This document shows, piece by piece, positions 925 through 52,500 of a stretch of DNA of 64,000 nt (positions within the stretch are counted from its first letter, which is position 1; each line of letters opens with the position of its first letter). The notes under the pieces are model-generated. The model ran no database searches, was not told the origin of the DNA, and saw only the letters and a list, made by a program, of their open reading frames with translations. This stretch comes from Caldicellulosiruptor diazotrophicus (lineage in GTDB: Bacteria; Bacillota; Thermoanaerobacteria; Caldicellulosiruptorales; Caldicellulosiruptoraceae): positions 2,457,501 through 2,521,500 of the forward strand of contig NZ_AP024480.1 of assembly GCF_017347585.1 (NCBI RefSeq). The letters run 5' to 3'. Made by a program: the position numbers and the translations under genes.

Positions 925-1560
925 TTGAAAAAACCTAAGGTTTTAATTGTTGATGATAACCCTGCCGTTTTGGACGGTCTTAAAATCATCCTTGAGCTTG
1001 AAAATTTTGATGTTGTAAGCCTTTACACCAATGCAAAAGAGGCAATAGAGTTTCTCAATATGTGGCATGTTGATGTTGTTCTTATGGATATTAGAATGCC
1101 TGTTATGGATGGTATTGAGGGAACTTTTAATATAAAAACCAAATTTCCAAATGTCAAAGTGATAATATTAACAACATTTTGTGAAGAAGATTACATAGAA
1201 AAGAGCTTGAGTTTTGGCGCAGATGGGTACATCCTTAAAAGCTCTGATGCAAAGCATATTGTAAATTCCATTTTGTCTGTGCTTGATGGTAAGGTTGTTA
1301 TAGACAAAGAAATTGCTTTATACGTTTCAGATGTATTGAAAAGGACTAGTAAGCAGCTGCTTGAAAAAACACAAAACCTTACTGAAAGAGAGCTTGAAAT
1401 TGCAAAGCTCATATCACAAGGATACTCAAATAAGGAAATTGCAGCCATGCTTTTCATCTCTGAAGGTACAGTAAGAAACTACATAACATCCATTCTTCAA
1501 AAGTTAAATCTTAAAAACAGAACACAAATTGCAGTATACTATCTAACCAAATTTTCTTAA
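925..1560 (+). CDS. NarL/LuxR-family response regulator
   Basis: A two-domain DNA-binding response regulator. The receiver begins KVLIVDDNPAVLDG (acidic pair), has the phospho-acceptor Asp in LMDIRMP (about residue 55), the Thr in ILTT and the Lys in YILK. The LuxR-type helix-turn-helix follows (LTERELEIAKLISQGYSNKE, then TVRNYI). I choose the TTG at 925 because AAAGGGAAG lies just upstream; an in-frame TTG at 895 has no visible ribosome site. No histidine kinase is adjacent, so the partner must be elsewhere and it is an orphan here. Targets cannot be read from the sequence. Confidence 0.9.
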   Translation: MKKPKVLIVDDNPAVLDGLKIILELENFDVVSLYTNAKEAIEFLNMWHVDVVLMDIRMPVMDGIEGTFNIKTKFPNVKVIILTTFCEEDYIEKSLSFGADGYILKSSDAKHIVNSILSVLDGKVVIDKEIALYVSDVLKRTSKQLLEKTQNLTERELEIAKLISQGYSNKEIAAMLFISEGTVRNYITSILQKLNLKNRTQIAVYYLTKFS

Positions 1561-1655
1561 TCTTACTTTTTGTGTTTGCCGGAGTAAAGATGTTATCCAA
1601 AAATGTACTTCGAAGGTGTTAATTAAAGTTTTTCTTGTGATAATATTTTAATTCA

Positions 1656-1802
1656 TTAATGTAATATATCGTAAATTAGTCTGCCAACAAATTCTCCAAT
1701 TCTAAAGGTTAAAAGAGAAAATAATCCAAAACCAATAAAAATCAGCGATACCCTAATTATAGGTGGGAATTTCTCCAATTTTGTAATCATCTGTTTTAGC
1801 AT
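1656..1802 (-). CDS. small single-pass membrane protein
   Basis: A 48-residue ORF starting MLKQMITKLEKFPP, with one hydrophobic segment (about residues 15-31, IIRVSLIFIGFGLFSLL) and a charged tail. The ribosome site GGAGG lies 8 nt before the ATG, which supports real translation. It is convergent with the response regulator. I do not recognise a family. Confidence 0.6.
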   Translation of the reverse strand: MLKQMITKLEKFPPIIRVSLIFIGFGLFSLLTFRIGEFVGRLIYDILH

Positions 1803-1917
1803 TTACCAAACCTCCAGTTCTATATCGGAGATGATTAATGGCATTTTTTAATAATTATATCACAGCAATTTTTTTGCAAAATGTAAAATTTTCTACATGT
1901 GAACAGTGTGGCTAAGC

Positions 1918-2085
1918 TAAATGCATATCTGTAATTCATCCAGTAGTCTTGCAACATTTGATACAAACTCACCCATTCTATAATTATTTCTTGCAGTATA
2001 TACCAATCTTTCTCAAGACCGTTGTACGTTACTATCGGAATTATTGCTGGAAGTTTCTTTACACCTTCTCGTTTTACTCATTTGT
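1918..2085 (-). pseudogene. remnant of an Rpn-family nuclease gene
   Basis: Two short stretches match the Rpn genes elsewhere in the window. Around 2030-2085 the minus strand encodes KLPAIIPIVTYNG, and from 1976 down it encodes MGEFVSNVARLLDELQ. In the intact genes these motifs are about 100 residues apart and in one frame, so an internal deletion has occurred. The gene is dead but shows that this family once occupied this site too. Confidence 0.65.
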
Positions 2086-2904: not shown

Positions 2905-4033
2905 AGACGTATTTTTAATACACTTTCCCTTACAGTTTTTATTTGTTTCTGGATCTTTATGTGTAATTTTAAAATAGTTAATGATAGTTGCATAACTTGT
3001 AACATCGTTTCTTGTCGTCACTAAACCTTCATAGTAAGGGTCTGCACCATTTGTGCCAAGATTGTCCGTAAGTTTACCTGTGATAAACACATTCACACTT
3101 GGTGACATGTTTGTTGCAGGGTCATATTTTAACACAGACCCGTTCTGGTCAAGTTTTACAAGATAACTGTACGAATCAAGGGTTATTGAAACTGAGTCTG
3201 AACGAAGCTTTGATGGGTCTTGTTTTATCACCATACCGGAGTATGTTCTGTACCAGAGCCCACCGTTTTTCCTGTGAACAATTACAACAGATGCACTTCC
3301 TTGGCTGTCTACACCCTTGAACACTGCTCTTTGTTTGAACTCATCCGGTGGTAATGTATCGCTACTAAACTTGGAAAATAGCTGACCAAGACTTTGCCCC
3401 GATTTTAAATCTTTAAGATTATATCTTGATTTCCATTACAGTCTCCCATTGATAACTTGCAACTTTGCTTGGGTCATAATCTGCCACGGCAAGTTTTGAC
3501 TTTGTAAAGTTATCTAATTGACGGATTTCTGACCATGTTAGAATATTGGCATATTCTACTGGTTGTGTTCCATCACCATCGTTTGGAAATTCTTTGTCTG
3601 GAAAAAGGTCACCGTTCATAGTATAACCAGCATATCTGAACCAACCACGTGGACCTGTACCATCTCTGTTTTTATGAAAGTACCCATTGGGGTCTTCTTT
3701 GAAATTCCAAACAAAGTTGTTATCTGGCACATCCCATGGTGTACCATACACTACCATCCTTCGCTCTGCGTAGATTTCGCAGTTGAAGTATTCATCTTTG
3801 CCGTTAACCTTAATTGATTTATATGTGTTAATTTCTTCAGACTTGAAACCTGCCTGTTGCATCCAGTAACTTCTGTCCTTACCATTGTAACTATCATATC
3901 CGCCGTTATACAAATTAATATCATCTGCTTTAACTGTCTGCCATATCCCCGCTGGTGGAACAAGACTTAAAATTAATGAGAGTATACATAAAAAAGAAAG
4001 AGCTTTGAACAAGCTCTTGTGTTTTTTAAGCAC
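2881..4033 (-). pseudogene. secreted surface protein, cassette A, frameshifted and truncated
   Basis: The N-terminal part (3419-4033) has a Sec signal peptide (about residues 8-37, hydrophobic core FLCILSLILSLVP) and the motifs LYNGGYDSYNG and NCEIYAERRMVVYGTP shared with the copies at 10932 and 18595. One extra A near 3440 shifts the frame; the downstream frame continues from about 3440 to 2881 with motifs WYRTYSG and DPYYEGLVTTRNDV. The C-terminal half present in the third copy is missing, replaced by repeat sequence near 2905. The function is unknown; the family appears to be an envelope or secreted partner of the SLH protein encoded just upstream. Confidence 0.75.
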
Positions 4034-8491: not shown

Positions 8492-8803
8492 CTACTGGCA
8501 CAGGTCATGTTTGGGCTTTTGAACCAGCTGTTTTGTAGCTGATATGACTTTTTTATGCAACACTTTTGTGAAATCGTTTACAAATCTTTTCCCTGTCCCT
8601 TTGCCTGTTTTGTCGCTTAACCCCAGCTCGAAAGCCCTTCTCAGGTTTGCCTGCTTCCTGCAAACCCGCTTGTATTCTTGTTTTGTGCCATATACCGGAG
8701 TCTGTTTTGAGCTTTCGAGCTGTCCTGTGTCTGCTGGGGTTTCAAAAAGTTTGATTTGCTTTGAATTAATTTTAGAATAGCAAACATTTGTTGGGGTAAG
8801 CAA
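8492..8803 (-). CDS. hypothetical 103-residue basic protein, copy 1
   Basis: The ORF is nearly identical to 16125-16436, part of a duplicated block of about 600 bp (8470-9055 and 16100-16690). The product is Lys/Arg rich with no recognised domain. It has only a TTG start without a clear ribosome site, so coding is uncertain; conservation may simply reflect recent duplication. Confidence 0.35.
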   Translation of the reverse strand: MLTPTNVCYSKINSKQIKLFETPADTGQLESSKQTPVYGTKQEYKRVCRKQANLRRAFELGLSDKTGKGTGKRFVNDFTKVLHKKVISATKQLVQKPKHDLCQ

Positions 8804-8916: not shown

Positions 8917-10932
8917 CTATTTTTCCTTCAGAAAAAAATCGACCAATGTATTTTCGCTATGAACTGCTGTGAATACCCATTTTTGAATTGTCTTAGCCCC
9001 TGTCTCGCCCACCTTTGCAGTGGCTGAGATTTTTACTGTGTATGTAGTTGGGTTGCTATTTCTTATCAAGATTAATTACATCATTTGAATTTGCAAAAAG
9101 CACTGGTGTATCAGAATTTTCTTTCACACTGACTCTTGCCTGGACAGGTGCAGGAGGGTTTGACCAATCTGATGTATGCAAATTCCCGTTTGGGTCTTTC
9201 AAAACGTACCTGACCTTGCCGTAGTATGCCGGTGTACCTTCCTTGTTTGGCTGGATGTATGTTGTGTTGTAATCAAAAGTTTTGCTCTGTGTAAAGCTTG
9301 TGATGGATGTTGCTGTTGTATCATAGCTTTCGCTGTAATCCGGTGTTGTTGCACTTTGAACCCTGCTTCTGTCTTTGTCAATCACAAAGTCAAGTCTTAC
9401 AACCCTCCAGCCTGCTGGTACTGTCATACCCGACACTTTTACAGGTTTTACTTTGTGCTGGATTGTTGATGGGTTGTACTGACCGTTTGAAATTACAACT
9501 TCGCTATAAGAAGGAGTTACTGAAAGTTGAAGCTGTGGTGCTGGTGGATTTGGAACTCTGATTGTAAATGTTAAGGTTGCTGAATTTTGTGAAAATACAG
9601 TTTTTGTTTTGCCATCCCCTACGTCAAATACTACCCGTGTTTCGCCTGTGACCACAACTGTATTATCTCCGTCTTTCAGCATATCTGCTGGTATATCAAA
9701 TCGCCTGCCTTCTACTGCTGTCCTGAAGTTAACTGTATTAACATCTCTTTTGGTAACTATTGCATCTGTCCATCTGTTGATAATACTGCTACTAACAGGA
9801 TTGCCATTGATTGTGATTGACGTTATCCTTGTTTGATACTGCAAAACGTCATTTCTTGTAAGGGCATTGTTGTCATAGTATGGGTTTGCTGAATTTGCCC
9901 CAAGCTGATCATCAAGTATCCCGTCAATGTAAAGGTCCACTGAAGGTTTTGTGTTGCTTCCATAGCGGTTATACTGCAAAACTGCACCATTCAAGCTGGA
10001 CGAACCGCTGCCACTTGCAAAGCTCAAACCTGAAACTATTGTGCCATCAACAGTTTTTGTTGTAACTTTAGGACTGCCGCCCTGCGGAATAAAACCTGTA
10101 TATGTTCTGTATCTGAGTCTGCCAGTAGAATCACGCCATACAATTCTTGCTGAAGCGTTGTGGTTTGCGTCGGTGCCAAGGTATGCAACATATGTGGGAA
10201 GTTGACTTACTGATGTCACTTTTCCGCTGTCAAAAAGCAATTGTTTCAAGGATTGGTAGGTACAGAATCTTTTTCTGTTAACAGGTGCAGATTCTGCCAC
10301 AGTGTTTGCCAGTCAGAAGGAGATACCCTGCTCGGGTCATACCCTGCAAGACCAAGGTCATCTCTTGCCGAAGCAGGAACACTTGAGAGTTTAACCACTT
10401 CATTTGGCTGTACAACTTCCGGCTTTAAGTCAGGAGGGAAATTGGAGTCGGAAAACGGAGCTCCTGACTTTGAATATCCCAGGTATCTGAACCAGCCACG
10501 GACAGCTCCCGGTGTTCCTGGCAGTGCTAATTTGTATGACCCATTGCTTTGCTTGACGGCATAGAAATACCCATCTGCTGCCGGTTTGAATCCCGCTGGG
10601 GAAACAAGATGATTTTCTGGCACATCATCTGGTGTGCCATACACTACCTGCCCACGCTCTGCGTAGATTTCACAGTTGAAATATTCATCTTTGCCGTTAA
10701 CTTGGATTTTATCAAGATATTTGTTAGGGTCTGTTGGGTCTTTTACCCCCGCTTTCTTTGCCCAGTCATAGCTACCTAAACCATTATAGCTTGTGTAACC
10801 GCCATTATATAGGGTTGTATCATCTGCATTAATTCTCTGCCATATCCCTACTGGTGGGACAAGACTTAAAATTAAAGACAATATACATAAAAAAGAAAGA
10901 GCCTTAAACAAGCTCCTGTGCTTATTATTCAT
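8917..10932 (-). pseudogene. secreted surface protein, cassette B, frameshifted twice
   Basis: The N-terminal part (10246-10932) has a Sec signal peptide and the LYNGGYTSYNG and YAERGQVVYGTP motifs. A frameshift near 10250-10300 moves the frame to 9056-10300, which carries the domain shared with cassette C (SVTPSYSEVVISNGQYNPS and onward). A second indel near 9060 (one extra A) stops the frame before the last 46 or so codons, which are still present to 8917. Apart from these two indels the coding sequence is well conserved with the intact copy at 16550-18595. Confidence 0.8.
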
Positions 10933-13019: not shown

Positions 13020-13367
13020 TTAACACCTAAAAGATACATTTGTGGCAATTGGTTCTAAATATATTATACCACTGCCAATAGGATTCTTTCTTCTCTCCTC
13101 ATCTGTCAAGCTCTTAAACTCTTCCTCATAAGGGGTTAAAATTGGAATTCTTTCAAGGCGATACTCCTGATTTCTTATTTTTGACTCTATGTTATGAAAC
13201 ACATACTGATATGATTTGTATTTGAGCAATTTTTTTATTTCATTCAATACATCATCTGGAATGATAATGTGACCTGCGAAAAGTTTATCTACTATATCAA
13301 GTCTGTTTATCCATGAAAAGGAACAAATACAATCATTGTCAAAAACTATTGGCATCTTCAAATTCAT
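13020..13367 (-). CDS. PIN-like protein, probably truncated at the C-terminus
   Basis: A 115-residue product starting MNLKMPIVFDNDCICSFSWI, with the first acidic residues of a PIN-like fold (FDND) and IIPDDVLNEI. Homologous proteins continue well past this length with a GEAxAIALA-type motif after the Gly-Ser-Gly; here the sequence changes at GSGIIYLE and stops. It overlaps the end of the ImmA/IrrE gene by 29 bp, so it belongs to that operon. It is likely a toxin-like partner, possibly inactive. Confidence 0.55.
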   Translation of the reverse strand: MNLKMPIVFDNDCICSFSWINRLDIVDKLFAGHIIIPDDVLNEIKKLLKYKSYQYVFHNIESKIRNQEYRLERIPILTPYEEEFKSLTDEERRKNPIGSGIIYLEPIATNVSFRC

Positions 13368-14106
13368 TTATTTCACCTTCTGTATCCTGCTGGGGTTCAA
13401 ACAACAAAGGTGCATATCCGCCCTCTACTAAAAGTTCCTCATATTTGCCGTATGAAATTCTGCCAGCTTCAAGTAGTTTTCTTGCAAGCTCTGCATACTC
13501 TGAATATACTTGAATTTCTTTATCTGATGTGTCTTTATAAAGCTGAGTAGAATATCCATATTCTTTTGCTTTGGCAATTACATTCTGGCTAAACTCTTTT
13601 TTCTGCTGTTCATTGATTATCCCCAGTTCTCTTAACCTTATTAACATGCACTGGTGACTTACCCCAAAGTATTGCTCCAGAAAGATTATATCACTAATCC
13701 CTATCTGTTTACCTTTTGTCTTTTTTTGCAGCACATATTTTAGCCCGTCGGCAGGGACCAAAAGATTAAGAGTAAAAATGTTTGCTTCTCTTTCTTCCGG
13801 GTTGTCATCTGCAAACTTTCTTATTGGGCAGATCCTGCTTACAACGCCTTTGCCATACTTGAAGTGGTAGTATTCATGTGCGGCTGTAAACCTCTGATGT
13901 CCCAGACTCTTTCTTGAATTGATTACTATCAGGTTTGCTTTGCCTTTTCGAGTAAATAAACCTGACATCTTGTTGCTCATTTCCATAATCACAACTGATA
14001 TACCTTCAATCTCATGAAGGACTTTAAAAATGTCAACCGGTTCATAAAATGCAAGCCCAAGTTCTTTTCTTGTTTCCAGTGCTCTAAGCTCTGCAATATT
14101 ACTCAT
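13339..14106 (-). CDS. ImmA/IrrE-family metallopeptidase
   Basis: A 255-residue protein with the COG2856 zinc-binding motif HEYYH in RFTAAHEYYHFKYG (about residue 79) and the downstream Glu in EEREANIFTLNLLVP. These peptidases usually cleave or inactivate a partner XRE repressor. The start overlaps the upstream XRE gene by 8 bp, and a PIN-like gene follows. Confidence 0.88.
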   Translation of the reverse strand: MSNIAELRALETRKELGLAFYEPVDIFKVLHEIEGISVVIMEMSNKMSGLFTRKGKANLIVINSRKSLGHQRFTAAHEYYHFKYGKGVVSRICPIRKFADDNPEEREANIFTLNLLVPADGLKYVLQKKTKGKQIGISDIIFLEQYFGVSHQCMLIRLRELGIINEQQKKEFSQNVIAKAKEYGYSTQLYKDTSDKEIQVYSEYAELARKLLEAGRISYGKYEELLVEGGYAPLLFEPQQDTEGEINEFEDANSF

Positions 14107-14455
14107 TTTCTATCTCCTCACACATCCTGTACATCATATCAAGGTTCATTACAAACTCATTGGCAAAAGCTATAACCTCAAGGTCTTCGTCTGCAATTTC
14201 ATCGGCTCTAAAATTAATCGCAACCTGTGTGTTTAATTGTTCATCGTCGCTTAAAAGGTAGTTGTAATCACAACCATATAACCTTGCAAGAGCCTGCAAT
14301 GTAGCAACGCTTATTTCTCTTGCTCCGGTTTCATAATATGAAAGTTGTTCCTGAGTAATACCCAGGTATTTTGCAACCTGCTCCTGGGTAAAACCTCTTT
14401 GTTTTCTCAACTCTCGAAGTTTTTCACCTATTTTCTTGTATACCTCTTCTTTCAT
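14099..14455 (-). CDS. XRE-family transcriptional regulator
   Basis: A helix-turn-helix regulator: MKEEVYKKIGEKLRELRKQR followed by GFTQEQVAKYLGITQEQLSYYE, a classic lambda-repressor-like fold, plus a C-terminal segment of about 50 residues. I choose the ATG at 14455 because GGAG lies 8 nt upstream; the longer frame to 14494 begins almost at the transcription start implied by TATAAT near 14508. It probably represses its own operon and is a likely substrate of the adjacent ImmA/IrrE peptidase. Confidence 0.87.
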   Translation of the reverse strand: MKEEVYKKIGEKLRELRKQRGFTQEQVAKYLGITQEQLSYYETGAREISVATLQALARLYGCDYNYLLSDDEQLNTQVAINFRADEIADEDLEVIAFANEFVMNLDMMYRMCEEIENE

Positions 14456-14549
14456 AAACATCACTCCATATAACCATTCGTTATAAATGTTCATTTCCTC
14501 TATTTAATTATACCATATTTGTTATCACAGTAAATAGTTTTTCTCCCAA

Positions 14550-14608: not shown

Positions 14609-14890
14609 TTAACTCTTATTCAAGTTCGTTGTCGGTTTATTGTCGTTACAATTTTTACTGCAGACTTGTTTTAAAGTAGGATGAAAATGTATACTCAAGG
14701 CAAAACCAACGATGCTAAGAAATAAAAGGAAAAGAATAAAAGCCCGTGCAGTAAACTGGTATAATTTGTTATCTACTGTACCATGCAGCAGAAATAGTAT
14801 GACTAATGCAGGTATTGCCAGGAATACGCTAATAACCCATACCAAAAACACTTCAAACCATATAGATTTCTTCTTTTTTGTATTATCCAT
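14609..14890 (-). CDS. small two-pass membrane protein
   Basis: A 93-residue protein with two hydrophobic segments (about residues 12-35 and 48-67) and a polar Asn/Lys-rich tail. GGAAGAAAG lies just before the ATG. The gene stands alone between two terminator hairpins. No family recognised. Confidence 0.6.
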   Translation of the reverse strand: MDNTKKKKSIWFEVFLVWVISVFLAIPALVILFLLHGTVDNKLYQFTARAFILFLLFLSIVGFALSIHFHPTLKQVCSKNCNDNKPTTNLNKS

Positions 14891-14987
14891 CTTTCTTCCC
14901 CTTCTTTGATTTTCTCAAGCTTTTCAATAATATTTATACGGCACTTTTCAAAATTTCGACACAGAATTTTTTGTTGTTAAAAACAGA

Positions 14988-15025
14988 AAAGTCACAGATA
15001 GTTTTTGGAGCAAACTATCTGTGAC
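14988..15025 (-). terminator. intrinsic terminator after 15079-15693
   Basis: GTCACAGATAGTTT pairs with AAACTATCTGTGAC, followed (minus strand) by TTCTGTTTTT. It closes the transcription unit of the PBECR4-like gene. Confidence 0.7.
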
Positions 15026-15078
15026 TAACTTCTTTTTGAAGGGTTTTCCGATTACATTCGCAGCAGAATCCTTACTTA

Positions 15079-15693
15079 TTATTGCCTTTTTTGCATTAAG
15101 AATTTTTTTGTTCCGTATTTTTTTACCTTCTTCAGTCTGTGCACTCTCTGTTGACTCAATATTCTCACGTTTTTAATTTGAACTAACTTTTGATTCCTGC
15201 AATACTTATCAGGCTGGCGACGTTGAACTATAAAGGTCTCTGGACAGTATATCTTTGGTTTTTCGCTCCTTTCTCTAATCCCCAAATAAAGATAAACAGG
15301 TTTGTTCGCTTCTATTTCTATTCTGAAGAACAAAAATTTGGACTGGAGCTTGCAGTTTTGCAGTTTACTGGGGTCAAAATCAATTATGTATTTGCTATTT
15401 GTTAATATGGGGAGTATATCAAAAAATTTTATTCTATCCTCAATTTCGTTGAAATATTTGCTTGTTTTCAGGCAAGCAAAAGTGATTTTTCCTTCATTGA
15501 TGCTTTTAAAAACTCTATCTGGGGGTGCTTTTGACAAATGCGGTCTGTCAAGAAGTTTATGTAAACCTAATAAATGTTTTAAATTCCTTTTCCCACACTT
15601 TAGTATTATTTTTTGTCCATCATCTAAAGTATACACAAAATACTTTCCTATTACCTCTTTGTAATTTTCAAGTGCTTGTTGCAACTGATCCAT
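15079..15693 (-). CDS. PBECR4-like nuclease-domain protein (tentative)
   Basis: A 204-residue protein. The N-terminal half (YFVYTLDDGQKIILKCGKRN, LKHLLGLHKLLDR) resembles PBECR4, a domain of the barnase/EndoU/colicin/RelE-like superfamily found in phage and mobile-element proteins. The C-terminal part is very basic (RRQPDKYCRNQ, KKVKKYGTKK). It lies downstream of a structured RNA element and a terminator hairpin. The family call rests on motif resemblance only. Confidence 0.45.
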   Translation of the reverse strand: MDQLQQALENYKEVIGKYFVYTLDDGQKIILKCGKRNLKHLLGLHKLLDRPHLSKAPPDRVFKSINEGKITFACLKTSKYFNEIEDRIKFFDILPILTNSKYIIDFDPSKLQNCKLQSKFLFFRIEIEANKPVYLYLGIRERSEKPKIYCPETFIVQRRQPDKYCRNQKLVQIKNVRILSQQRVHRLKKVKKYGTKKFLMQKRQ

Positions 15694-15720
15694 AAAAGAA
15701 GAACCCCCTTTAAAGCAAAA

Positions 15721-15744
15721 ACCCTGGGCATTATGACCCAGGGT
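15721..15744 (-). terminator. intrinsic terminator between the structured RNA and 15079-15693
   Basis: CCCTGGG pairs with CCCAGGG across an 8-nt loop, followed leftwards by TTTTTGC. It lies in the 5' leader of the PBECR4-like gene, so it either ends the upstream RNA or attenuates the gene. Confidence 0.7.
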
Positions 15745-15764
15745 CTACTCCTTTACCTATAAAC

Positions 15765-15950
15765 ACTATGCCTTCGTGTTTTGTTTTCGGGATGAATTTC
15801 TCATCCCTAGGCAGCAGGGCGCCAACACGAAGGAAAAGCCCCAATGCGCTTCTATATTTTACGTCCCGAAGCTAGGGAGAGGCTTGCTGCCACAGCCCGG
15901 TATGCTTTTAAGGTGCATACCACACCTTACTTGCTCTCTTCGATGAGTAT
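15765..15950 (-). ncRNA. structured RNA candidate, possibly omega-RNA/HEARO-like
   Basis: The minus strand shows several nested complementarities. GGTATGC pairs with GCATACC across a short loop. GTGGCAGC can pair with GCTGCC, and CCCTAG with CTAGGG. CCTTCGTG can pair with CACGAAGG, and GGGATGA-GAAA-TTCATCCC is a GNRA-capped hairpin. The region has no ORF, has above-average GC, ends before a terminator, and has a partial duplicate at 2845-2904. The layout recalls RNAs of IS200/IS605 or IscB elements (HEARO), but no IscB or TnpB gene is adjacent. Confidence 0.45.
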
Positions 15951-16002
15951 TCTAAAAATCCTCTACTTTTATTATACCCTTCTTAGCTTAATTTGAAAAC
16001 GT

Positions 16003-16072
16003 ACTTTTTATTTTTACATTTTTGTAGACGTATTTTTCATACACTTTCCCTGACAGTTTTTATTATATACCC
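16003..16072 (-). repeat. dispersed small-RNA-like element, copy 5
   Basis: The minus strand begins TATATAATAAAAACTG, then has the core GTCTACAAAAATGTAAAAAT. This copy lacks the terminal hairpin. A partial copy with the same variant core is at 2906-2945. Confidence 0.55.
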
Positions 16073-16124
16073 TAACTTTAAAATTTGCAACACAGTTTGA
16101 TGCCAGGATTCTCAAGAGTTTTAG

Positions 16125-16436
16125 CTACTGGCACAAGCCTTGTTTGGGCTTTTGAACCAGGTGTTTTGTAGCTGATATGACTTTTTTATGCAGCACTTTT
16201 GTGAAATCGTTTACAAATCTTTTCCCTGCCTCTTTGCCTGTTTTGTCGCTTAACCCCAGCTCGAAAGCCCTTCTCAGGTTTGCCTGCTTCCTGCAAACCC
16301 GTTTGTATTCTTGTTTTGTGCCATATACCGGAGTCTGTTTTGAGCTTTCGAGCTGTCCTGTGTCTGCTGGGGTTTCAAAAAGTTTGATTTGCTTTGAATT
16401 AATTTTAGAATAGCGAACATTTGTTGGGGTAAGCAA
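16125..16436 (-). CDS. hypothetical 103-residue basic protein, copy 2
   Basis: Nearly identical to 8492-8803, in the same position downstream of a surface-protein gene. It is Lys/Arg rich with no recognised domain, and has a TTG start without a good ribosome site. It could be a degenerate remnant carried by the duplicated block. Confidence 0.35.
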   Translation of the reverse strand: MLTPTNVRYSKINSKQIKLFETPADTGQLESSKQTPVYGTKQEYKRVCRKQANLRRAFELGLSDKTGKEAGKRFVNDFTKVLHKKVISATKHLVQKPKQGLCQ

Positions 16437-16549: not shown

Positions 16550-18595
16550 CTATTTTTCCTTCAGAAAAAAATCGACCAATGTATTTTCGCTATGAACTGC
16601 TGTGAATACCCATTTTTGAATTGTCTTAGCCCCTGTCTCGCCCACCTTTGCAGTGGCTGAGATTTTTACTGTGTATGTAGTTGGATTGCCATTCTTATCA
16701 AGATTAATTACATCATTTGAATTTGCAAAAAGCACTGGTGTATCAGAATTTTCTTTCACACTGACTCTTGCCTGGACAGGTGCAGGAGGGTTTGACCAAT
16801 CTGATGTATGCAAATTCCCGTTTGGGTCTTTCAAAACGTACCTGACCTTGCCGTAGTATGCCGGTGTACCTTCCTTGCCCGGCTGGATGTATGTTGTGTT
16901 GTAATCAAAAGTTTTGCTCTGTGTAAAGCTTGTGATGGATGTTGCTGTTGTATCATAGCTTTCGCTGTAATCCGGTGTTGTTGCACTTTGAACCCTGCTT
17001 CTGTCTTTGTCAATCACAAAGTCAAGTCTCACAATCCTCCAGCCTGCTGGTACTGTCATACCCGACACTTTTACAGGTTTTACTTTGTGCTGGATTGTGG
17101 ATGGGTTGTACTGACCGTTTGAGATTACAACTTCGCTGTAAGAAGGAGTTACTGAAAGCTCAAGCTGTGGGTCTGACAGAGAAGGCTTTTTGATTATTGT
17201 GATTGTCTGGCTTGCTGAGTTGTAGGAATCTACATGGTAACCTGCTGTAAAGAATACTCTTACCTTGGCACTTATCGTTATTGTGTTAGTACCTGTTTGT
17301 AAAAGATTTGATGGTATTTGAATATTGTAATCGCTCGATCGGCTTGTGAAGACTGCTTTACTATTGTCAGATTGATTTCTCTGATAATCCCCTTCTCTGT
17401 ACCTATTTTCACCTGTCACACCTTTGTAAATAAGCTGGTCTGTGTAATCAACATCATTGATTTTAAAGTAGTTTAAAACTGTGTAGTATCTTGCGTCGTT
17501 TCTTGTAAAATACCATATGTCTACTATGCTATGGTTGTAATCCTTATAATCGTAAAATACACCTTTAACTGTTAGGTTGATATTAGCTGTAGAGTTTTTC
17601 GCAGGGTCAAATACAAAGGCAGAACCATCTGATGTTTTAGGTAAATTTGAACTACCGTATGAAATACTGTAGGCTACTACGTCCTGCTGGTCTGGCAAGA
17701 ACTTGTTAATTGCACCAGTAAATTTTACAGGTGCAACTTTTCCGTTTTTCCTGAAAAACAGGATTATTTGCAAATATCCTTCCTGTGCAGAACCTATTAT
17801 AACGCCTTTGCTGAAAAGTAAATCTTCTGTAAGCCAGGAAAGTGCATTGATGTATGAACCATCTATATCTTTATTTGAGCTCACAGCTCTGAGATAGTAT
17901 CCGCCTTTCACGTATGTGTTGTAAATTTTATCTTTCTCTTTACTACCCAAACTATTTGTTCTGTACTGTGCAACCAAACTGTTATATTGGTTCCTGACAT
18001 CACTATCTGTTTTTGATGCAAGGTTTGAACTTGTCAGGTCTGACCACTTCAAAAAATCATCGCCAGTTTCCGACCAGTAAGGATTTTGATATGGCTGACG
18101 GCTCATGTCATATCCATCGTATTTGAATATAACTCTGGTTGCACCAGAAGTATTAGGCGGTACTATTGTTGCAATGTTTGGCTGGTATTCTTTTATCCAC
18201 CAGTAACCGATTGATGATGGTTTCCAAGGATTTGCACTGTAACTTACTTTGGTTGCACCATAAGGATTGCCCTGTACATTCCCCGGCAGTCCATATACTG
18301 CTTTCCTGTAGTCTATTGCGTATTCGGTGTTGAGGTAAAAGGTGCCGTAACCCTGTTTGTCTATTTTTTGGTCGCTATTTATGTCACCGTGAAGTATATC
18401 CCTTATAACATCTGTTCTTGTTATTCCATTATAACTATCAAAACCACCTTCATAATAATTATTGGCTACTGCACTATAATCAATTGCATATGCTTTTGTT
18501 AAGGGCAAAAACTGAGCTACAAGTTCAAATACAAATACCAAGATTAAAAATAAAGCAAGGGGTTTATTTTGTCCCTTGCTCTTGAATATTTTCAT
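16550..18595 (-). CDS. secreted surface protein, cassette C, intact
   Basis: About 681 residues from the ATG at 18595, which has GGAGGTG upstream; a longer frame to 18637 overlaps the preceding gene. It has a Sec signal peptide (core ALFLILVFVFELVAQFLPL), a dockerin-like or EF-like short motif (DINSDQKIDKQGYG) near the N-terminus, the YYEGGFDSYNG motif, and beta-rich repeats ending in a domain (about 490-660) shared with cassette B. It is the only complete member of this family in the window. The last residues (VDFFLKEK) seem to result from fusion with the gene fragment at 16437-16549. The function is unknown, probably extracellular. Confidence 0.75.
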   Translation of the reverse strand: MKIFKSKGQNKPLALFLILVFVFELVAQFLPLTKAYAIDYSAVANNYYEGGFDSYNGITRTDVIRDILHGDINSDQKIDKQGYGTFYLNTEYAIDYRKAVYGLPGNVQGNPYGATKVSYSANPWKPSSIGYWWIKEYQPNIATIVPPNTSGATRVIFKYDGYDMSRQPYQNPYWSETGDDFLKWSDLTSSNLASKTDSDVRNQYNSLVAQYRTNSLGSKEKDKIYNTYVKGGYYLRAVSSNKDIDGSYINALSWLTEDLLFSKGVIIGSAQEGYLQIILFFRKNGKVAPVKFTGAINKFLPDQQDVVAYSISYGSSNLPKTSDGSAFVFDPAKNSTANINLTVKGVFYDYKDYNHSIVDIWYFTRNDARYYTVLNYFKINDVDYTDQLIYKGVTGENRYREGDYQRNQSDNSKAVFTSRSSDYNIQIPSNLLQTGTNTITISAKVRVFFTAGYHVDSYNSASQTITIIKKPSLSDPQLELSVTPSYSEVVISNGQYNPSTIQHKVKPVKVSGMTVPAGWRIVRLDFVIDKDRSRVQSATTPDYSESYDTTATSITSFTQSKTFDYNTTYIQPGKEGTPAYYGKVRYVLKDPNGNLHTSDWSNPPAPVQARVSVKENSDTPVLFANSNDVINLDKNGNPTTYTVKISATAKVGETGAKTIQKWVFTAVHSENTLVDFFLKEK

Positions 18596-18620
18596 CCTCG
18601 AAAACACCTCCTCAGCAGAA

Positions 18621-20216
18621 TCAGTACGTCCCATCATATAAAGATATCTGAGCTGCTGTTGTTCCTATCGCACCATATTCTCTATTAAAAACTATTCCAA
18701 CAGAGTCCTCCGAACTAAGAAGCACCAACCTCTTTTCAGTTGTAAGTCTATATTTGCAATACAACAGTTGCCACAGTTCATCTATTCGGTACGTTATTGT
18801 CTTGCCTGTATGGTAGTAGAGAACACAGTATAAACCGTCAGGTTCATATCCCCTTGCTTCTTTAAACTTATAATTATATCCATAATCATCGATAGTATCA
18901 TTTTTAAATGTCAGTTCATCAAACACAACTCTTTTGCTTTCATCAAATATCTTTGTTATCATATCAACTGCTTCTGCCCTTGTTAAAGCCTTACCTGCAT
19001 TGAACCTTATATCAGGCACGTTCATTACAGGTGGATATCTTGGAACACCTGTCCATGCATCAGCAATCGGTTTAAAGTTTTTATAAACGTTTTTAAATAT
19101 GTTCATATCAACATTGGCTTCTGGTTGGATTATGCCAAGGTCTGCAAGTCTTGCTATTGCCTCTTGATAGAGTTTCGGTATTGAATCATAGTCCCTGCAA
19201 ATGTATTTAAACCTTGTCCAGTCAAGTGGGAGCTTCCTTGGCAGTTTCATAAGCCACCTGTTAAGTGCTTCATTCGTCACAGGATTGAGCTCTGCTGTCC
19301 ACTGCCAGTCATCTACATTTGTGCTCTTGTACTTGCCAAATTCAAGCCATGGTAAGAATATCTGGTAGTATAATTTCCCTTCGCTCTTGTCATCTTTAAA
19401 AGTAAAAAACGAATATCCTTCACCCCAGCCACGAGGAAAATCTTTAGGAACATAAAATAACGAATACAGCTGTCTGTTAACATTATCTGGTACTGCAAAT
19501 TTTTTATCGGAAATACTCTTACTTGCTAAAAATTTGTAATGTCCCAACACCCACACTTGAGCTTTTAATCTTTCTGAAGGCATATCAAACTTGACTTTGT
19601 CAGGGTTCTCTTTCATAAACCTCTGCAAAACCTTCCACCAGTCAAGCGGCAAAAAGTAATCTTTTAGCCTGTTCCATACATGCACTGTCTTAACTGTCCC
19701 GTCCTTATAATACTTGTCAATCACAACAAGGTCATATGCCATAATAGCGTACTTTGAGTTAAAATGTGCCCAAGGGCTATTATCCCATTCTGGTGGAGTC
19801 CACGCAACATAAGCACCTCTGAAATTGTGAGTTACATCCCCTCCTGACCAGAATGTGTAATCTACCGGTGACAGTACAACTGTTTTGACCGGTATATTCT
19901 TATCCTTAAGCTCTGGCACTGCATTGATGAGCTTCCACACAATGTAGCTTGCCTGAGCTCGTGTTATGGGTCTGTCTTTTTTGACCTCACCGGGAATCAA
20001 GCCCATTTTGACTGCCTTTCCCCAGTAGTCAGCTATACCATTTGGCTTTACTTTTGCACCTATTAAGAACGATGTTACAAACTCGCCTGCTGTGATGTAG
20101 TCTATTTTGTTTATTGCTGCCTGTACTTTCTGTGTGATTGTTCCTGCCTGTGCTACTGGGAAGGCAAAGGTTAAAAGCAGGCTCAAGATTACAATAAAGC
20201 TTACAAACTTTTTCAT
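18621..20216 (-). CDS. SLH-domain envelope protein, cassette C
   Basis: A 531-residue paralogue of 4053-5924 and 10953-12821. Signal peptide (MKKFVSFIVILSLLLTFAFP) and N-terminal SLH segment (ITRAQASYIVWKL) are conserved; the C-terminal SLH segment (FNAGKALTRAEAVDMITKIF) is present at about 405-435. The central region is diverged and shorter. The ATG at 20216 is preferred over the TTG at 20222 because GGAGTGATTG lies just upstream. The secreted partner follows closely. Confidence 0.8.
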   Translation of the reverse strand: MKKFVSFIVILSLLLTFAFPVAQAGTITQKVQAAINKIDYITAGEFVTSFLIGAKVKPNGIADYWGKAVKMGLIPGEVKKDRPITRAQASYIVWKLINAVPELKDKNIPVKTVVLSPVDYTFWSGGDVTHNFRGAYVAWTPPEWDNSPWAHFNSKYAIMAYDLVVIDKYYKDGTVKTVHVWNRLKDYFLPLDWWKVLQRFMKENPDKVKFDMPSERLKAQVWVLGHYKFLASKSISDKKFAVPDNVNRQLYSLFYVPKDFPRGWGEGYSFFTFKDDKSEGKLYYQIFLPWLEFGKYKSTNVDDWQWTAELNPVTNEALNRWLMKLPRKLPLDWTRFKYICRDYDSIPKLYQEAIARLADLGIIQPEANVDMNIFKNVYKNFKPIADAWTGVPRYPPVMNVPDIRFNAGKALTRAEAVDMITKIFDESKRVVFDELTFKNDTIDDYGYNYKFKEARGYEPDGLYCVLYYHTGKTITYRIDELWQLLYCKYRLTTEKRLVLLSSEDSVGIVFNREYGAIGTTAAQISLYDGTY

Positions 20217-33214: not shown

Positions 33215-33439
33215 GTTTGTAGCCTGCCCTTTGGGGATTGAAACAGGCTTGCAACAAAGTTTTTTAAGCTTATCCTTAGTTTGTAGCCTGCCCTTTGGGG
33301 ATTGAAACATGTACCCATCTTCTGTTTCTGTAATAACCCTACAAGTTTGTAGCCTGCCCTTTGGGGATTGAAACTCAGTTGTCCCACTCACAAAATATGC
33401 ACTAACCTGGTTTGTAGCCTGCCCTTTGGGGATTGAAAC
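33215..33439 (+). CRISPR. CRISPR array 1 (4 repeats, 3 spacers)
   Basis: There are four identical 30-bp repeats (GTTTGTAGCC-TGCCCTTTGG-GGATTGAAAC) at 33215, 33279, 33345 and 33410, with spacers of 34-36 bp. The repeat end ATTGAAAC is typical of type I-B and III crRNA tags. After the fourth repeat the sequence continues into phage-like coding sequence with no fifth repeat, so the array is truncated. Confidence 0.98.
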
Positions 33440-37894: not shown

Positions 37895-39643
37895 GTTTGT
37901 AGCCTCCCCTTTGGGGATTGAAACTTTTTTATATGAGCACTTCAACAATCCTTCTACTTTGTTTGTAGCCTCCCCTTTGGGGATTGAAACTGATGTAGTG
38001 CTGATTGTACAGTTTGATAGGATGATTGTTTGTAGCCTCCCCTTTGGGGATTGAAACTGAAAAAAATTTTATGTATATTGAGAATAGTAATTTGGTTTGT
38101 AGCCTCCCCTTTGGGGATTGAAACGGTCAAACTTTCTTGTTATCTTGTCAATCGTGTAATTTGTAGCCTCCCCTTTGGGGATTGAAACTTCATCGTTGTA
38201 ATTCAGCCCTGTTAGTTCACACAATTTGTAGCCTCCCCTTTGGGGATTGAAACTCAAATACATGAATTTTGCCTTTTTTAACTTGTTCATTTGTAGCCTC
38301 CCCTTTGGGGATTGAAACCCATCCAGAATAACTATATTATTCTGGATGGTAATAATTTGTAGCCTCCCCTTTGGGGATTGAAACTCCTTTTTTGATAATC
38401 TTTACCCTCCAAAACGACTAGTTTGTAGCCTCCCCTTTGGGGATTGAAACTTTCGTTTAACAGCTTTATAATGAGCCAATTTTGTGTTTGTAGCCTCCCC
38501 TTTGGGGATTGAAACTAAATCCTGCATTATAAAGCTTTTCTATAAGTTCAATAGTTTGTAGCCTCCCCTTTGGGGATTGAAACTTGAATAAATCGTAATT
38601 TGTAACATAGCCTTTTTGTTTGTAGCCTCCCCTTTGGGGATTGAAACAAATGCTTTCTATTCCACGGGCATATTCTTGAATTACAGTTTGTAGCCTCCCC
38701 TTTGGGGATTGAAACTCTATTTCCTTTTTATCACCGCGCACATACCAATTGAGTTTGTAGCCTCCCCTTTGGGGATTGAAACTCTTTTCTCATTATTTTT
38801 CAACCCTCCATTTCTTTTGTTTGTAGCCTCCCCTTTGGGGATTGAAACAAGTTTTTAGTTATAGTGGCAATGCTTTTAGAGGAGTTTGTAGCCTCCCCTT
38901 TGGGGATTGAAACATAACCTGTGCATTTTGATCAGCAGGATTGTTCACAAGTTTGTAGCCTCCCCTTTGGGGATTGAAACACACTACTTAGAGACATGCG
39001 CAGTATAGAGTTTTATTGTTTGTAGCCTCCCCTTTGGGGATTGAAACTCAAGACAGTATTATATTAACACAAGCGAAGCAATAAAGTTTGTAGCCTCCCC
39101 TTTGGGGATTGAAACTAACTCTGCCATCAGCTGTTTTAAAAGCACCTTCTCTGTTTGTAGCCTCCCCTTTGGGGATTGAAACAATTTACATCCGCACTGC
39201 AACCGCACAGCACCTGCGTTTGTAGCCTCCCCTTTGGGGATTGAAACTCAATCACTCTGTCAGTCTTCTCTTTAGCTTCATTAGTTTGTAGCCTCCCCTT
39301 TGGGGATTGAAACCATCTGCTGCTGCCATGAGTTTTGCTGCCATTTCCCGTTTGTAGCCTCCCCTTTGGGGATTGAAACTCCTCCCAATTGGCAGGGCCT
39401 GGTAGACATCCTAGTTTGTAGCCTCCCCTTTGGGGATTGAAACTGAAAAGCTGAACAGGAATATCAATCGTGCGTACTAATTTGTAGCCTCCCCTTTGGG
39501 GATTGAAACAGGCTCAGCTCTGTCAATACTCCCATGTGAAAAGCATTTGTAGCCTCCCCTTTGGGGATTGAAACAAAGTAATTCCCGCTGCCTTCGGATA
39601 TCCACCACCACCAGTTTGTAGCCTCCCCTTTGGGGATTGAAAC
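37895..39643 (+). CRISPR. CRISPR array 2 (27 repeats, 26 spacers)
   Basis: The repeat is as in array 1 but with C at base 12 (CCTCCCC). Repeats start at 37895, 37961, 38028 and so on to 39614, with spacers of 34-38 bp. About six repeats have A instead of G at base 1. One spacer (38254-38288) is shared with array 3, and one (38319-38354) is a near-perfect hairpin. The last repeat is followed by phage-like coding sequence. Confidence 0.98.
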
Positions 39644-49552: not shown

Positions 49553-52500
49553 GTTTGTAGCCTTCCCTTTGGGGATTGAAACCAAAACACGCAAGCAGAA
49601 AAAAGCTCCAGCAGACGGTTTGTAGCCTTCCCTTTGGGGATTGAAACCCGTATTTGCAAACCGGCCGGTAAGAAACCAAAACCGTTTGTAGCCTTCCCTT
49701 TGGGGATTGAAACCAAAGTGGGGGCTATCTGATACGTGCAAAAAGCCCGGTTTGTAGCCTTCCCTTTGGGGATTGAAACGGAAATTTTTTTCATCTCTAA
49801 CTTCTATCTTATTCAGTTTGTAGCCTTCCCTTTGGGGATTGAAACTGGGATTTAACGGAGCGGAGCTATAACTCCGCTCCGTGTTTGTAGCCTTCCCTTT
49901 GGGGATTGAAACAATATATAGCCTGCCCTGCAAAAACATCGCCACCCGGTTTGTAGCCTTCCCTTTGGGGATTGAAACTAACCGTGGCGGATAGCATCCA
50001 CCACGGTTCGAATGGTTTGTAGCCTTCCCTTTGGGGATTGAAACTTCAAACATTCATACAGCTTGTCAGCGCTGCATGGAGTTTGTAGCCTTCCCTTTGG
50101 GGATTGAAACATAGACTCTGCTTCTGGAGAAGCAGAGTTTGTCGGTTTGTAGCCTTCCCTTTGGGGATTGAAACTTCTTTATAGAACTATTATAGCATAA
50201 TTGGCAACAGTTTGTAGCCTTCCCTTTGGGGATTGAAACTTTCGGCTCTTTGTCAAGAGTTGGGGTGGGTATTCGTTTGTAGCCTTCCCTTTGGGGATTG
50301 AAACATTTCTAACTTCTATCCATTTCGTCTTATTCATTTGTTTGTAGCCTTCCCTTTGGGGATTGAAACTCTTCATAAATAGTAGGGCCTGGTAGACATC
50401 CTACGTTTGTAGCCTTCCCTTTGGGGATTGAAACTTTTATTATTTAAAATTTTGGCAACACAATCAAAAGTTTGTAGCCTTCCCTTTGGGGATTGAAACT
50501 CCTTCTATAACTTTTCTTACTTTTTCTTCTTTTTGTTTGTAGCCTTCCCTTTGGGGATTGAAACCATTGTCAATAATAATGCTTTCATCTTTGTAACATA
50601 AAACGTTTGTAGCCTTCCCTTTGGGGATTGAAACTACCTCCCTTATAAAATTTTTAGCTTCTTGGACAAATTGTTTGTAGCCTTCCCTTTGGGGATTGAA
50701 ACGAAGACAATACCATACCAAAGTAAATGAATATAAAGGTTTGTAGCCTTCCCTTTGGGGATTGAAACTGAAATTATCTGTTATTGGCTTACCACAAACA
50801 GGACAGTTTGTAGCCTTCCCTTTGGGGATTGAAACATAACTTAAAGAGAGATGTTTATAATAGAATGATTGCGTTTGTAGCCTTCCCTTTGGGGATTGAA
50901 ACACTGGTGGAGTTGATATTGTAGGAGCTCTTACAAGGTTTGTAGCCTTCCCTTTGGGGATTGAAACTGTAAATGGGAATAAAATAGGAGAATATGCTGG
51001 GAGTTTGTAGCCTTCCCTTTGGGGATTGAAACATTGCATTGTGTCGTAATATCTAAAGTAGCGTTTGGTTTGTAGCCTTCCCTTTGGGGATTGAAACGCT
51101 GTTACAACATGTTTTAAATGCTCATAAATGTTTGTTTGTAGCCTTCCCTTTGGGGATTGAAACGCATATTTTCTGTTCTTCATATTAGGTGCAAGTTGTT
51201 TGTAGCCTTCCCTTTGGGGATTGAAACAAAAAAATAAAAATACATCCCCCTTATTATGCACTATCGTTTGTAGCCTTCCCTTTGGGGATTGAAACTCGGT
51301 AAAACCATTCAGTTGGTCTGCCTTTTTGTTGCGTTTGTAGCCTTCCCTTTGGGGATTGAAACTTTTTTTGGCTTTTCTTATTTCTCTAAGCTTGTTCAGT
51401 TTGTAGCCTTCCCTTTGGGGATTGAAACAAGGTCTAACGAATCCATACCTATCAAACTCTTTCGGTTTGTAGCCTTCCCTTTGGGGATTGAAACTTCAAA
51501 CATTCATACAGCTTGTCAGCGCTGCATGGAGTTTGTAGCCTTCCCTTTGGGGATTGAAACAAGAATCACTTCGAAGTCTACAACAGCTACTGAGCGTTTG
51601 TAGCCTACCCTTTGGGGATTGAAACAACCCCAAAGGGTAGGCTACGCAGGGGCTAAAAGGTTTGTAGCCTTCCCTTTGGGGATTGAAACACAATTTGGAT
51701 ACTAACAATTCGGTCGCTGATGTTGGTTTGTAGCCTTCCCTTTGGGGATTGAAACGTTAATGAAATTAAGGAGAGGCTTATATATGAATTAGTTTGTAGC
51801 CTTCCCTTTGGGGATTGAAACTTTTTTTAATTAAATTTCTCTCTAACATTTTTTACCGTTTGTAGCCTTCCCTTTGGGGATTGAAACTGCTAATCGATAT
51901 AATGTTGATTTTGAAGAATTATTGGTTTGTAGCCTTCCCTTTGGGGATTGAAACTCAAATACATGAATTTTGCCTTTTTTAACTTGTTCAGTTTGTAGCC
52001 TTCCCTTTGGGGATTGAAACTAAATTTGCAAGCACAATTCTGTAAATGCATAAATAGTTTGTAGCCTTCCCTTTGGGGATTGAAACTAGTCCTTCTCACA
52101 ACATTGAGAAGGACTGCTTTCGGTTTGTAGCCTTCCCTTTGGGGATTGAAACAGATTAGCCAGGGCAATAAAAACACAATTGTTGATAGTTTGTAGCCTT
52201 CCCTTTGGGGATTGAAACTCAAAGATGGTCAAGTTATTGAAACTTGGGAATTAGTTTGTAGCCTTCCCTTTGGGGATTGAAACCTGTGCGCTGCGATCCA
52301 GGTAGGCACCTGAACCGACGGTTTGTAGCCTTCCCTTTGGGGATTGAAACAATATTTTATGCCGTCTTTTCAATTTTGGCGATACGTTTGTAGCCTTCCC
52401 TTTGGGGATTGAAACCCAAACCTCGATCCACAACTGTGGTTCGAGAAAATAAGTTTGTAGCCTTCCCTTTGGGGATTGAAACAAACTAACAATCCATCCA

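Follow-up and report, generated by a model that had tools for sequence, protein, structure and literature searches.

A structured RNA upstream of a PBECR4-domain gene in Caldicellulosiruptor diazotrophicus: a candidate antitoxin of a type III-like toxin-antitoxin system

Introduction

What kind of RNA is encoded by the non-coding, structured element at positions 15765–15950 of this DNA stretch from Caldicellulosiruptor diazotrophicus, and does it have a protein partner? In the following, the window means the whole stretch that was analysed, 64,000 nucleotides long. The original prediction read the element either as the RNA of a mobile element (omega-RNA or HEARO) without its protein, or as another RNA of an unrecorded class. 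To our knowledge, the toxins of known type III-like toxin-antitoxin systems are ToxN-type, HEPN (AbiF) or deaminase proteins. The analysis of the window and of related loci suggests that the element is likely to be the RNA antitoxin and leader of such a type III-like system, in which proteins with a PBECR4 domain would form a new toxin family. As in type III loci, a non-coding RNA lies upstream of the proposed toxin gene on the same strand, with a terminator in between.

Results

The locus

The element is a genuine structured RNA of about 200 nt, encoded on the minus strand and driven by a promoter (Table 1). The expectation of a non-coding stretch with several complementary segments was borne out, as the 15765–15950 region folds better than its shuffled versions on both strands, with z −2.80 and none of 200 shuffles equally stable on the minus strand, and z −2.41 on the plus strand. 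The sequence reads as a minus-strand unit, since the promoter, the terminator and a downstream gene of the same orientation are all present there; the plus strand was rejected as the RNA strand, having no promoter, terminator or gene in phase. The promoter scores 10 of 12, with a spacer of 17 nt between its −35 and −10 boxes, and the RNA core of about 160 nt (15928–15771) is nearly invariant in the alignment of four genomes. Between the terminator and a gene for a 204-aa protein there is a G-rich ribosome site, also on the minus strand. The protein matches the Pfam family PF18813 (PBECR4) with 59.1 bits against a cut-off of 27. We take PBECR4, after the name of the Pfam family, to be phage Barnase-EndoU-ColicinE5/D-RelE-like nuclease 4. 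The RNA is thus not without a protein, as had been supposed: the PBECR4 gene stands directly behind it on the minus strand, both in the window and in a second genome of the genus, G004.

Table 1. Positions of the RNA, its signals, its paired segments and related features. Coordinates are those of the window unless a locus is named.
Feature	Position	Strand	Basis or remark
−35 box TTTTCA, 4/6 consensus	15994–15999	−	Read from sequence
−10 box TATAAT	15971–15976	−	GGGTATAAT stretch invariant across all four homologues
Structured RNA	15765–15968	−	Fold z −2.80; alignment; homologues 93–100% identical
5' H-type pseudoknot	15899–15928	−	15928–15923 with 15915–15910; 15921–15916 with 15904–15899
5' arm x (GGCAGC) of long-range pseudoknot	15886–15891	−	Pairs with 15810–15815
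5' arm y (CCTTCGTGTT) of 10-bp closing helix	15824–15833	−	Pairing count
3' arm x' (GCTGCC), TA directly after	15810–15815	−	Alignment, pairing count
Hairpin GGGATGA-GAAAT-TCATCCC, then GAAAACAAAAC	15789–15807	−	Order as in drum's x'-UA-stem-GAAAGAAAA
3' arm y' (AACACGAAGG) of closing helix	15771–15780	−	Pairing count
Intrinsic terminator, hairpin and T run, in the RNA/gene interval	15717–15744	−	Terminator scan; G004 has one too
PBECR4-domain protein of 204 aa; proposed toxin, predicted RNase of BECR fold	15079–15693	−	PF18813 E 9.9e-16
Broken copy of the 3' part of the RNA	2843–2899	−	98% over 57 nt
Two-unit RNA examples	L026:2115–2251 (−), L027:2121–2261 (−), L061:408–545 (+), and 14 more loci		Alignment

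The proposed fold has 40 pairs, made up of the 5' H-type pseudoknot, the x/x' pairing, two hairpins and the closing helix, and it is kept in 99.4% of the cells of the four aligned RNAs. All pairs of the 5' pseudoknot are kept in all four sequences, with one G-C to G-U change, and in G004 the x/x' pairing carries a double change from G-C to C-G. The closing helix is 10 bp rather than the 8 bp first proposed. The hairpin predicted as GNRA does have GAAA in its loop, but the loop of the minus-strand RNA is GAAAU and no clean GNRA tetraloop is formed. Homologues with compensatory changes, the absence of which had been named as evidence against the element, do exist, but in the window RNA this evidence is a single double change, a value reached by 122 of 500 shuffles, and therefore the four sequences cannot prove the fold alone. 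A tandem repeat of the classical type III antitoxin kind is absent from the window RNA, which is not among the 12 of 106 PBECR4 upstream regions with a repeat of at least 75% over 40 nt.

The suggestion that the RNA belongs to an unrecorded class has held up: no Rfam family matches the region at gathering score, and a permissive Rfam search (E ≤ 5) of the same region gave nothing plausible. A different role, in which the RNA would not inhibit PBECR4 but act as its guide or sensor and lead it to a target RNA, is compatible with the anatomy of the locus, and AbiF, the RNA of which serves as an antitoxin, is reported to be the ancestor of Cas13 (PMC12737573). But a variable guide segment is absent from the window RNA, whose core is nearly invariant in four species, and we regard a guiding role as highly improbable compared with that of an antitoxin.

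Relatives in the genus

Among 13 genomes of the family the RNA is present in four, the window genome (G000), G001, G002 and G004, with 93–100% identity; a 36-nt match in G003 (L010/L014) was discarded as a homologue because it sits in a permease-like reading frame. PBECR4 was found in G000 and G004 only, each time directly behind the RNA and in the same one-strand order of promoter, RNA, terminator and gene. Both PBECR4-bearing genomes of the 13 therefore carry the RNA, and two of the four RNA-bearing genomes (G001 and G002) have no PBECR4 beside it. A search of 37 genomes of the class with the PBECR4 protein of the window returned G000 and G004 alone.

In G002 the RNA and its flank are 98.9% identical to the window over 349 nt, and the neighbouring HTH-ImmA-PIN operon has 73.5% DNA identity. 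G002 keeps this operon and has no counterpart of window 14611–15751, which holds PBECR4 and a 93-aa gene; on this comparison, the nuclease gene of G002 is gone and the RNA remains. In the window itself genes for an HTH protein, an ImmA/IrrE-like peptidase and a PIN-like protein stand in a row behind PBECR4 (13020–14494, minus strand), and the PIN-like frame, shorter than that of G002, may be broken. Short dispersed repeats flank the RNA stretch shared by G000 and G002, and what remains, as far as the sequences suggest, is a mobile flavour of this stretch. A family of dispersed repeats, the longest of about 430 nt (window 16005–16436, 8492–8803, 2786–2815 and 2900–2945; L011, L012 and L013), adjoins the RNA and occurs in related genomes too. 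It holds a 103-aa open frame that recurs at 94%, has no Pfam match and is probably not a gene.

The partial second copy of the RNA that had been noticed in the window is real, with 98% identity over 57 nt, and its placement at a break in a surface gene was roughly right, the copy lying just beyond fragments (2953–3354 and 3437–3916) that match a 695-aa surface protein. In this copy x', the hairpin and y' are retained while x and y are missing, and no PBECR4 gene follows; the window genome has only one. Having lost the 5' arms of both long-range helices, the copy cannot form the fold and represents a broken duplicate. Surface-protein genes paralogous to one another, two of which are fragmented, are located at window 2953–3916, 8920–10809 and 16553–18637. 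The window also contains CRISPR arrays at 33215–33439, 37895–39643 and 49553–54050, all with the Rfam repeat type CRISPR-DR2.

Having more than one copy, dispersed repeats at its flanks and a very recent spread in G000 and G002, the RNA could be thought to be the omega-RNA or HEARO-type RNA of an IS200/IS605-like element whose nuclease was lost. We consider this extremely improbable, and the mobile-element part of the original prediction is contradicted. The RNA has no Rfam match, to HEARO, to an IS605-associated family or otherwise; no TnpB was found within 4.8 kb of the four homologues, the nearest TnpB zinc-ribbon being about 4.8 kb away in G002 and 34–190 kb away in the other three genomes; and, for IscB, the RRXRR domain does not occur in G000 or G001, while in G002 and G004 its distance from the RNA exceeds 200 kb. 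The promoter box is conserved, and a terminator and a PBECR4 gene follow the RNA in two genomes.

The next gene on the strand of the RNA in G001 encodes an Abi_2 protein (E 3.5e-56), and AbiF RNAs are reported as antitoxins in the parts of two papers covered here (PMC12373285, PMC12737573), so the RNA might be part of an AbiF/Abi_2 defence module with PBECR4 as an incidental neighbour. This is very unlikely. The window genome has no Abi_2, the Abi_2 gene of G004 is elsewhere and has no window-type RNA beside it, and only G001 has Abi_2 next to the RNA. Moreover, the Abi_2 gene of G001 apparently has a promoter and a stable hairpin RNA of its own, the latter with a T run (fold z −3.45), and the neighbourhood in G001 is therefore read as incidental; on these grounds AbiF was rejected as a general partner of the RNA. 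The linkage with PBECR4, on the other hand, is seen in two species, and for the drum type of RNA described below it recurs at dozens of loci. The hairpin RNA in G001 is likely an AbiF-associated RNA in its own right (L012:7950–8070, plus strand), with a promoter, a stable hairpin (z −3.45) and a T run before Abi_2, and has no Rfam match.

PBECR4 loci in other bacteria

The reading of the window RNA as an antitoxin also draws on loci outside the genus. One bacterial family has PBECR4 in 71 of 397 genomes, another in 38 of 189, and a phylum sample in 3 of 398, the window's own included; the first loci taken were the best-scoring of the matches, 30 from the former family and 29 new ones from the latter. 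The order of promoter, RNA, terminator and PBECR4 recurs across Bacillota and in Treponema bins, nearly everywhere that upstream regions were read. A terminator at −110 to −4 was found for 47 of 62 PBECR4 genes; shuffled sequences had one in 7 of 310 cases and other open reading frames in 10 of 77. Some of the terminators missed by the scan can be recognised by eye as hairpins that are long or AT-rich. The gene starts come from a script, which misplaced some of them (for example in L022 and L048). Promoter scores of at least 10 were obtained for 125 of 138 PBECR4 upstream regions versus 10 of 207 control frames. Upstream folds with z below −2 were found at 88 of 106 PBECR4 loci versus 20 of 110 controls, the latter a random draw from a longer list (Mann-Whitney p 3.6e-20).

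Many of these upstream RNAs belong to a known family. In 21 of the 40 loci selected from the first PBECR4 loci for comparison with Rfam, drum RNA (RF02958; function unknown) is directly upstream of PBECR4 at gathering score, and it also precedes PBECR4 in L022 (52.3 bits) and L023 (43.0 bits, with the cut-off at 43). When 250 genomes were searched for drum first, 25 matches were obtained. In 18 of them PBECR4 follows directly, one is cut by the end of its contig, and six are without an intact PBECR4; in one of these six, L090, a PBECR4-like C-terminus is retained behind the RNA, as judged by eye. The x/x' pairing of drum is formed in 94.4% of cells, with double changes in all five pairs. Two loci have two drum RNAs each on the same strand, L176 (1525–1636 and 1795–1920) and L189 (905–1009 and 1926–2036).

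A covariance model, R1, was built from 18 drum RNAs and applied to a named set of 79 loci from Lachnospiraceae, Selenomonas ruminantium, Treponema, Roseburia faecis, Hungatella hathewayi and others, many of them metagenome bins whose labels may err. Three of the 79 loci were excluded because they start too near the PBECR4 match. Of the remaining 76, which have enough upstream sequence and belong to a set that was fetched with drum-type proteins, contains near-duplicates and overlaps the loci from which R1 and the x/x' descriptor used below were made, R1 matches 74, always on the strand of the gene. All 62 intact PBECR4 genes (180–245 aa) of the named set are preceded by an R1-matched RNA. Loci with broken or odd-length frames keep the RNA in 12 of 14 cases, and the two without it have broken frames. 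In the drum-type set, then, RNA without intact toxin occurs and intact toxin without RNA was not seen; an RNA that is kept longer than the toxin is as predicted for a toxin-antitoxin pair.

Other PBECR4 genes are preceded by a second RNA, absent from Rfam, which consists of two tandem pseudoknotted units of about 55 nt each. In 17 sequences its 33-pair pseudoknotted structure is formed in 96.8% of cells, compared with 26–50% in slid controls. Double changes occur at 25 of the 33 pairs against a shuffle mean of 14.3, with none of 500 shuffles as high; the number of further pair types, 36, falls short of the 39.7 that the shuffles give on average. On a tree built from 50 PBECR4 proteins, a single change separates the drum and two-unit labels, and none of 500 shuffles is as low for either label. 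The proteins of the window and G004 fall among the drum-associated PBECR4 and are parted from the two-unit clade by a branch with support 100; the tree, made by a quick method and with long branches flagged, is read for this split and not for deeper placement. As far as it indicates, a change of RNA class goes along with a change of toxin clade. In a few loci the upstream RNA was assigned to neither class. At L078 there is an Rfam DUF3800-VIII RNA match (1361–1423, plus strand) beyond the 3' end of the PBECR4 gene (1438–2073, minus strand), on the opposite strand.

These observations bear on the question whether the RNA is only a cis-acting leader, similar to a riboswitch or attenuator, that controls read-through into PBECR4 and has no function in trans. 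Such a leader would explain part of the same anatomy, in that the RNA occupies the 5' leader of a gene of the same orientation and has a terminator at its end, and the AbiF leader RNA of C. difficile is described as lowering downstream expression by termination (PMC12373285). Against this stand drum RNAs that lack an intact PBECR4 downstream (6 of 25 matches; of the 14 loci with broken or odd-length frames, 12 retain the RNA), and the two genomes of the window genus, out of four, in which the RNA is present but the gene is missing. Further, RNA class tracks protein clade, as expected for an RNA that touches the protein. A purely cis-acting role is thus rather unlikely, and since the AbiF leader also acts in trans, cis and trans roles are not exclusive.

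Is the window RNA itself a drum RNA? It gives no match to the Rfam drum model, at gathering score or at E ≤ 5, and R1 does not match the RNA in the window, L011, L012 or L013. It does share with drum the place before PBECR4 with promoter and terminator (an association found here, outside the Rfam definition), the 5' H-type pseudoknot (by eye), the long-range x/x' pairing, the order x'-UA-stem-GAAA..AAAA and a 3' helix that opens in an A run. It differs in its diverged sequence, in a longer closing helix of 10 bp and in the position of x outside a hairpin loop. A strict descriptor of the x/x'-UA-stem-GAAA..AAAA feature, written after the window RNA had been seen, has this RNA as its sole match when both strands of the 64-kb window are scanned, and it matches 19 of 136 other PBECR4 upstream regions. 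A looser version finds 51 of 136 PBECR4 upstream regions versus 37 of 3113 background tiles; it also finds nine places in the window, the RNA included, and 7 of 2000 shuffles of the window RNA, and misses 14 of 23 Rfam-positive drum loci. As neither the Rfam model nor R1 scores the window RNA, it is drum-like in architecture and not a member of the family; judged by these shared features it is probably a strongly diverged counterpart of drum RNA.

The protein

Alignments of PBECR4 show an invariant His (residue 40 of the window protein) and Gly (HxxG), and Asp, Arg, Phe and Tyr are invariant in the drum-type set; the window protein keeps all invariant residues. Of the residues described by Iyer et al. 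2017 (PMC5512222), the histidine agrees with the invariant His, and no assignment was reached for the Thr/Ser. Structure models were obtained for the PBECR4 proteins of Hungatella (pLDDT 94.6) and of the window (pLDDT 74.4). Foldseek found no match in the PDB for either model at E ≤ 0.001, and for the Hungatella model it returned two unnamed viral proteins (E 8e-9 and 7.6e-7). In a second structure comparison with the PDB, 12 toxins of RelE, HigB, ParE, BrnT and CDI type were among the 50 matches listed for the Hungatella model, the best toxin match being BrnT (Z 4.2, rmsd 4.3 over 75 residues); the window model matched RegB (Z 3.2, rmsd 4.7, 101 residues). All structural similarities to known toxins have Z below 5. 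The models are consistent with PBECR4 being a BECR nuclease and do not prove it. An NCBIfam search of PBECR4 gave only sub-cutoff rows, and a PDB sequence search nothing convincing. DNA and protein searches of plasmids and phages gave no match, single-protein scans of viral contigs no relative, and two exact RNA patterns were not found in viral contigs.

Discussion

The features of the locus suggest how such a system might operate. The minus-strand promoter would make the pseudoknotted RNA, most of which would end at the terminator before the gene, and occasional read-through would yield the PBECR4 mRNA. The RNA may accumulate as a short, abundant transcript. By analogy with ToxIN and AbiF, this abundant RNA would bind PBECR4 and block its RNase site; a loss of the RNA, for example when phage infection shuts down transcription, could free the nuclease, which would then cut cellular RNA and stop growth.

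More broadly, it seems reasonably probable that PBECR4 proteins are the toxins of a widespread and apparently unnamed type III-like system of Bacillota and, by bin labels, Spirochaetota, with at least two unrelated pseudoknotted antitoxin designs that would have diverged together with the protein: the drum type, of which the window RNA would be a far branch or else a third design, and the two-unit tandem type absent from Rfam. If so, drum, an RNA of unknown function, gains its job, a BECR-fold nuclease with an RNA partner adds another toxin fold, and the two-unit RNA is a strongly covarying family missing from Rfam. The accessible parts of the literature on drum concern k-turn folding, covariation and the Rfam listing (PMC8191799, PMC7657543, PMC7779021, PMC12510878). 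A link between drum and PBECR4 was not found in the titles and abstract openings searched, and it may have been noticed earlier in the original description of drum; PBECR4 was not found by name in the literature searched.

How does this system compare with known ones? PBECR domains are part of phage polyvalent proteins (Iyer et al. 2017, PMC5512222), a report whose accessible part mentions neither an RNA partner nor PBECR4 by name. By Pfam name the predicted RNase superfamily is the same, but in the window the domain makes up a solo 204-aa protein with an RNA partner. The nearest experimental precedent, by analogy, is AbiF in C. difficile, whose leader RNA is described as stopping transcription ahead of the gene and also as co-purifying tightly with the AbiF protein (PMC12373285). 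Its arrangement is that of the window, with a promoter, a short structured RNA, a terminator and then an RNase gene on the same strand; the toxin fold of AbiF, however, is HEPN (Abi_2) in place of PBECR4, and the window RNA differs from that of AbiF and exceeds it in length. ToxIN, CptIN and TenpIN, as presented in the same paper, likewise have a pseudoknotted RNA before the toxin with a terminator between them (PMC12373285). They differ from the window system, the protein of which matches PBECR4 and no ToxN-type Pfam profile and the RNA of which is unrepeated, whereas the two-unit RNA of other PBECR4 loci resembles theirs in having two tandem units with pseudoknots.
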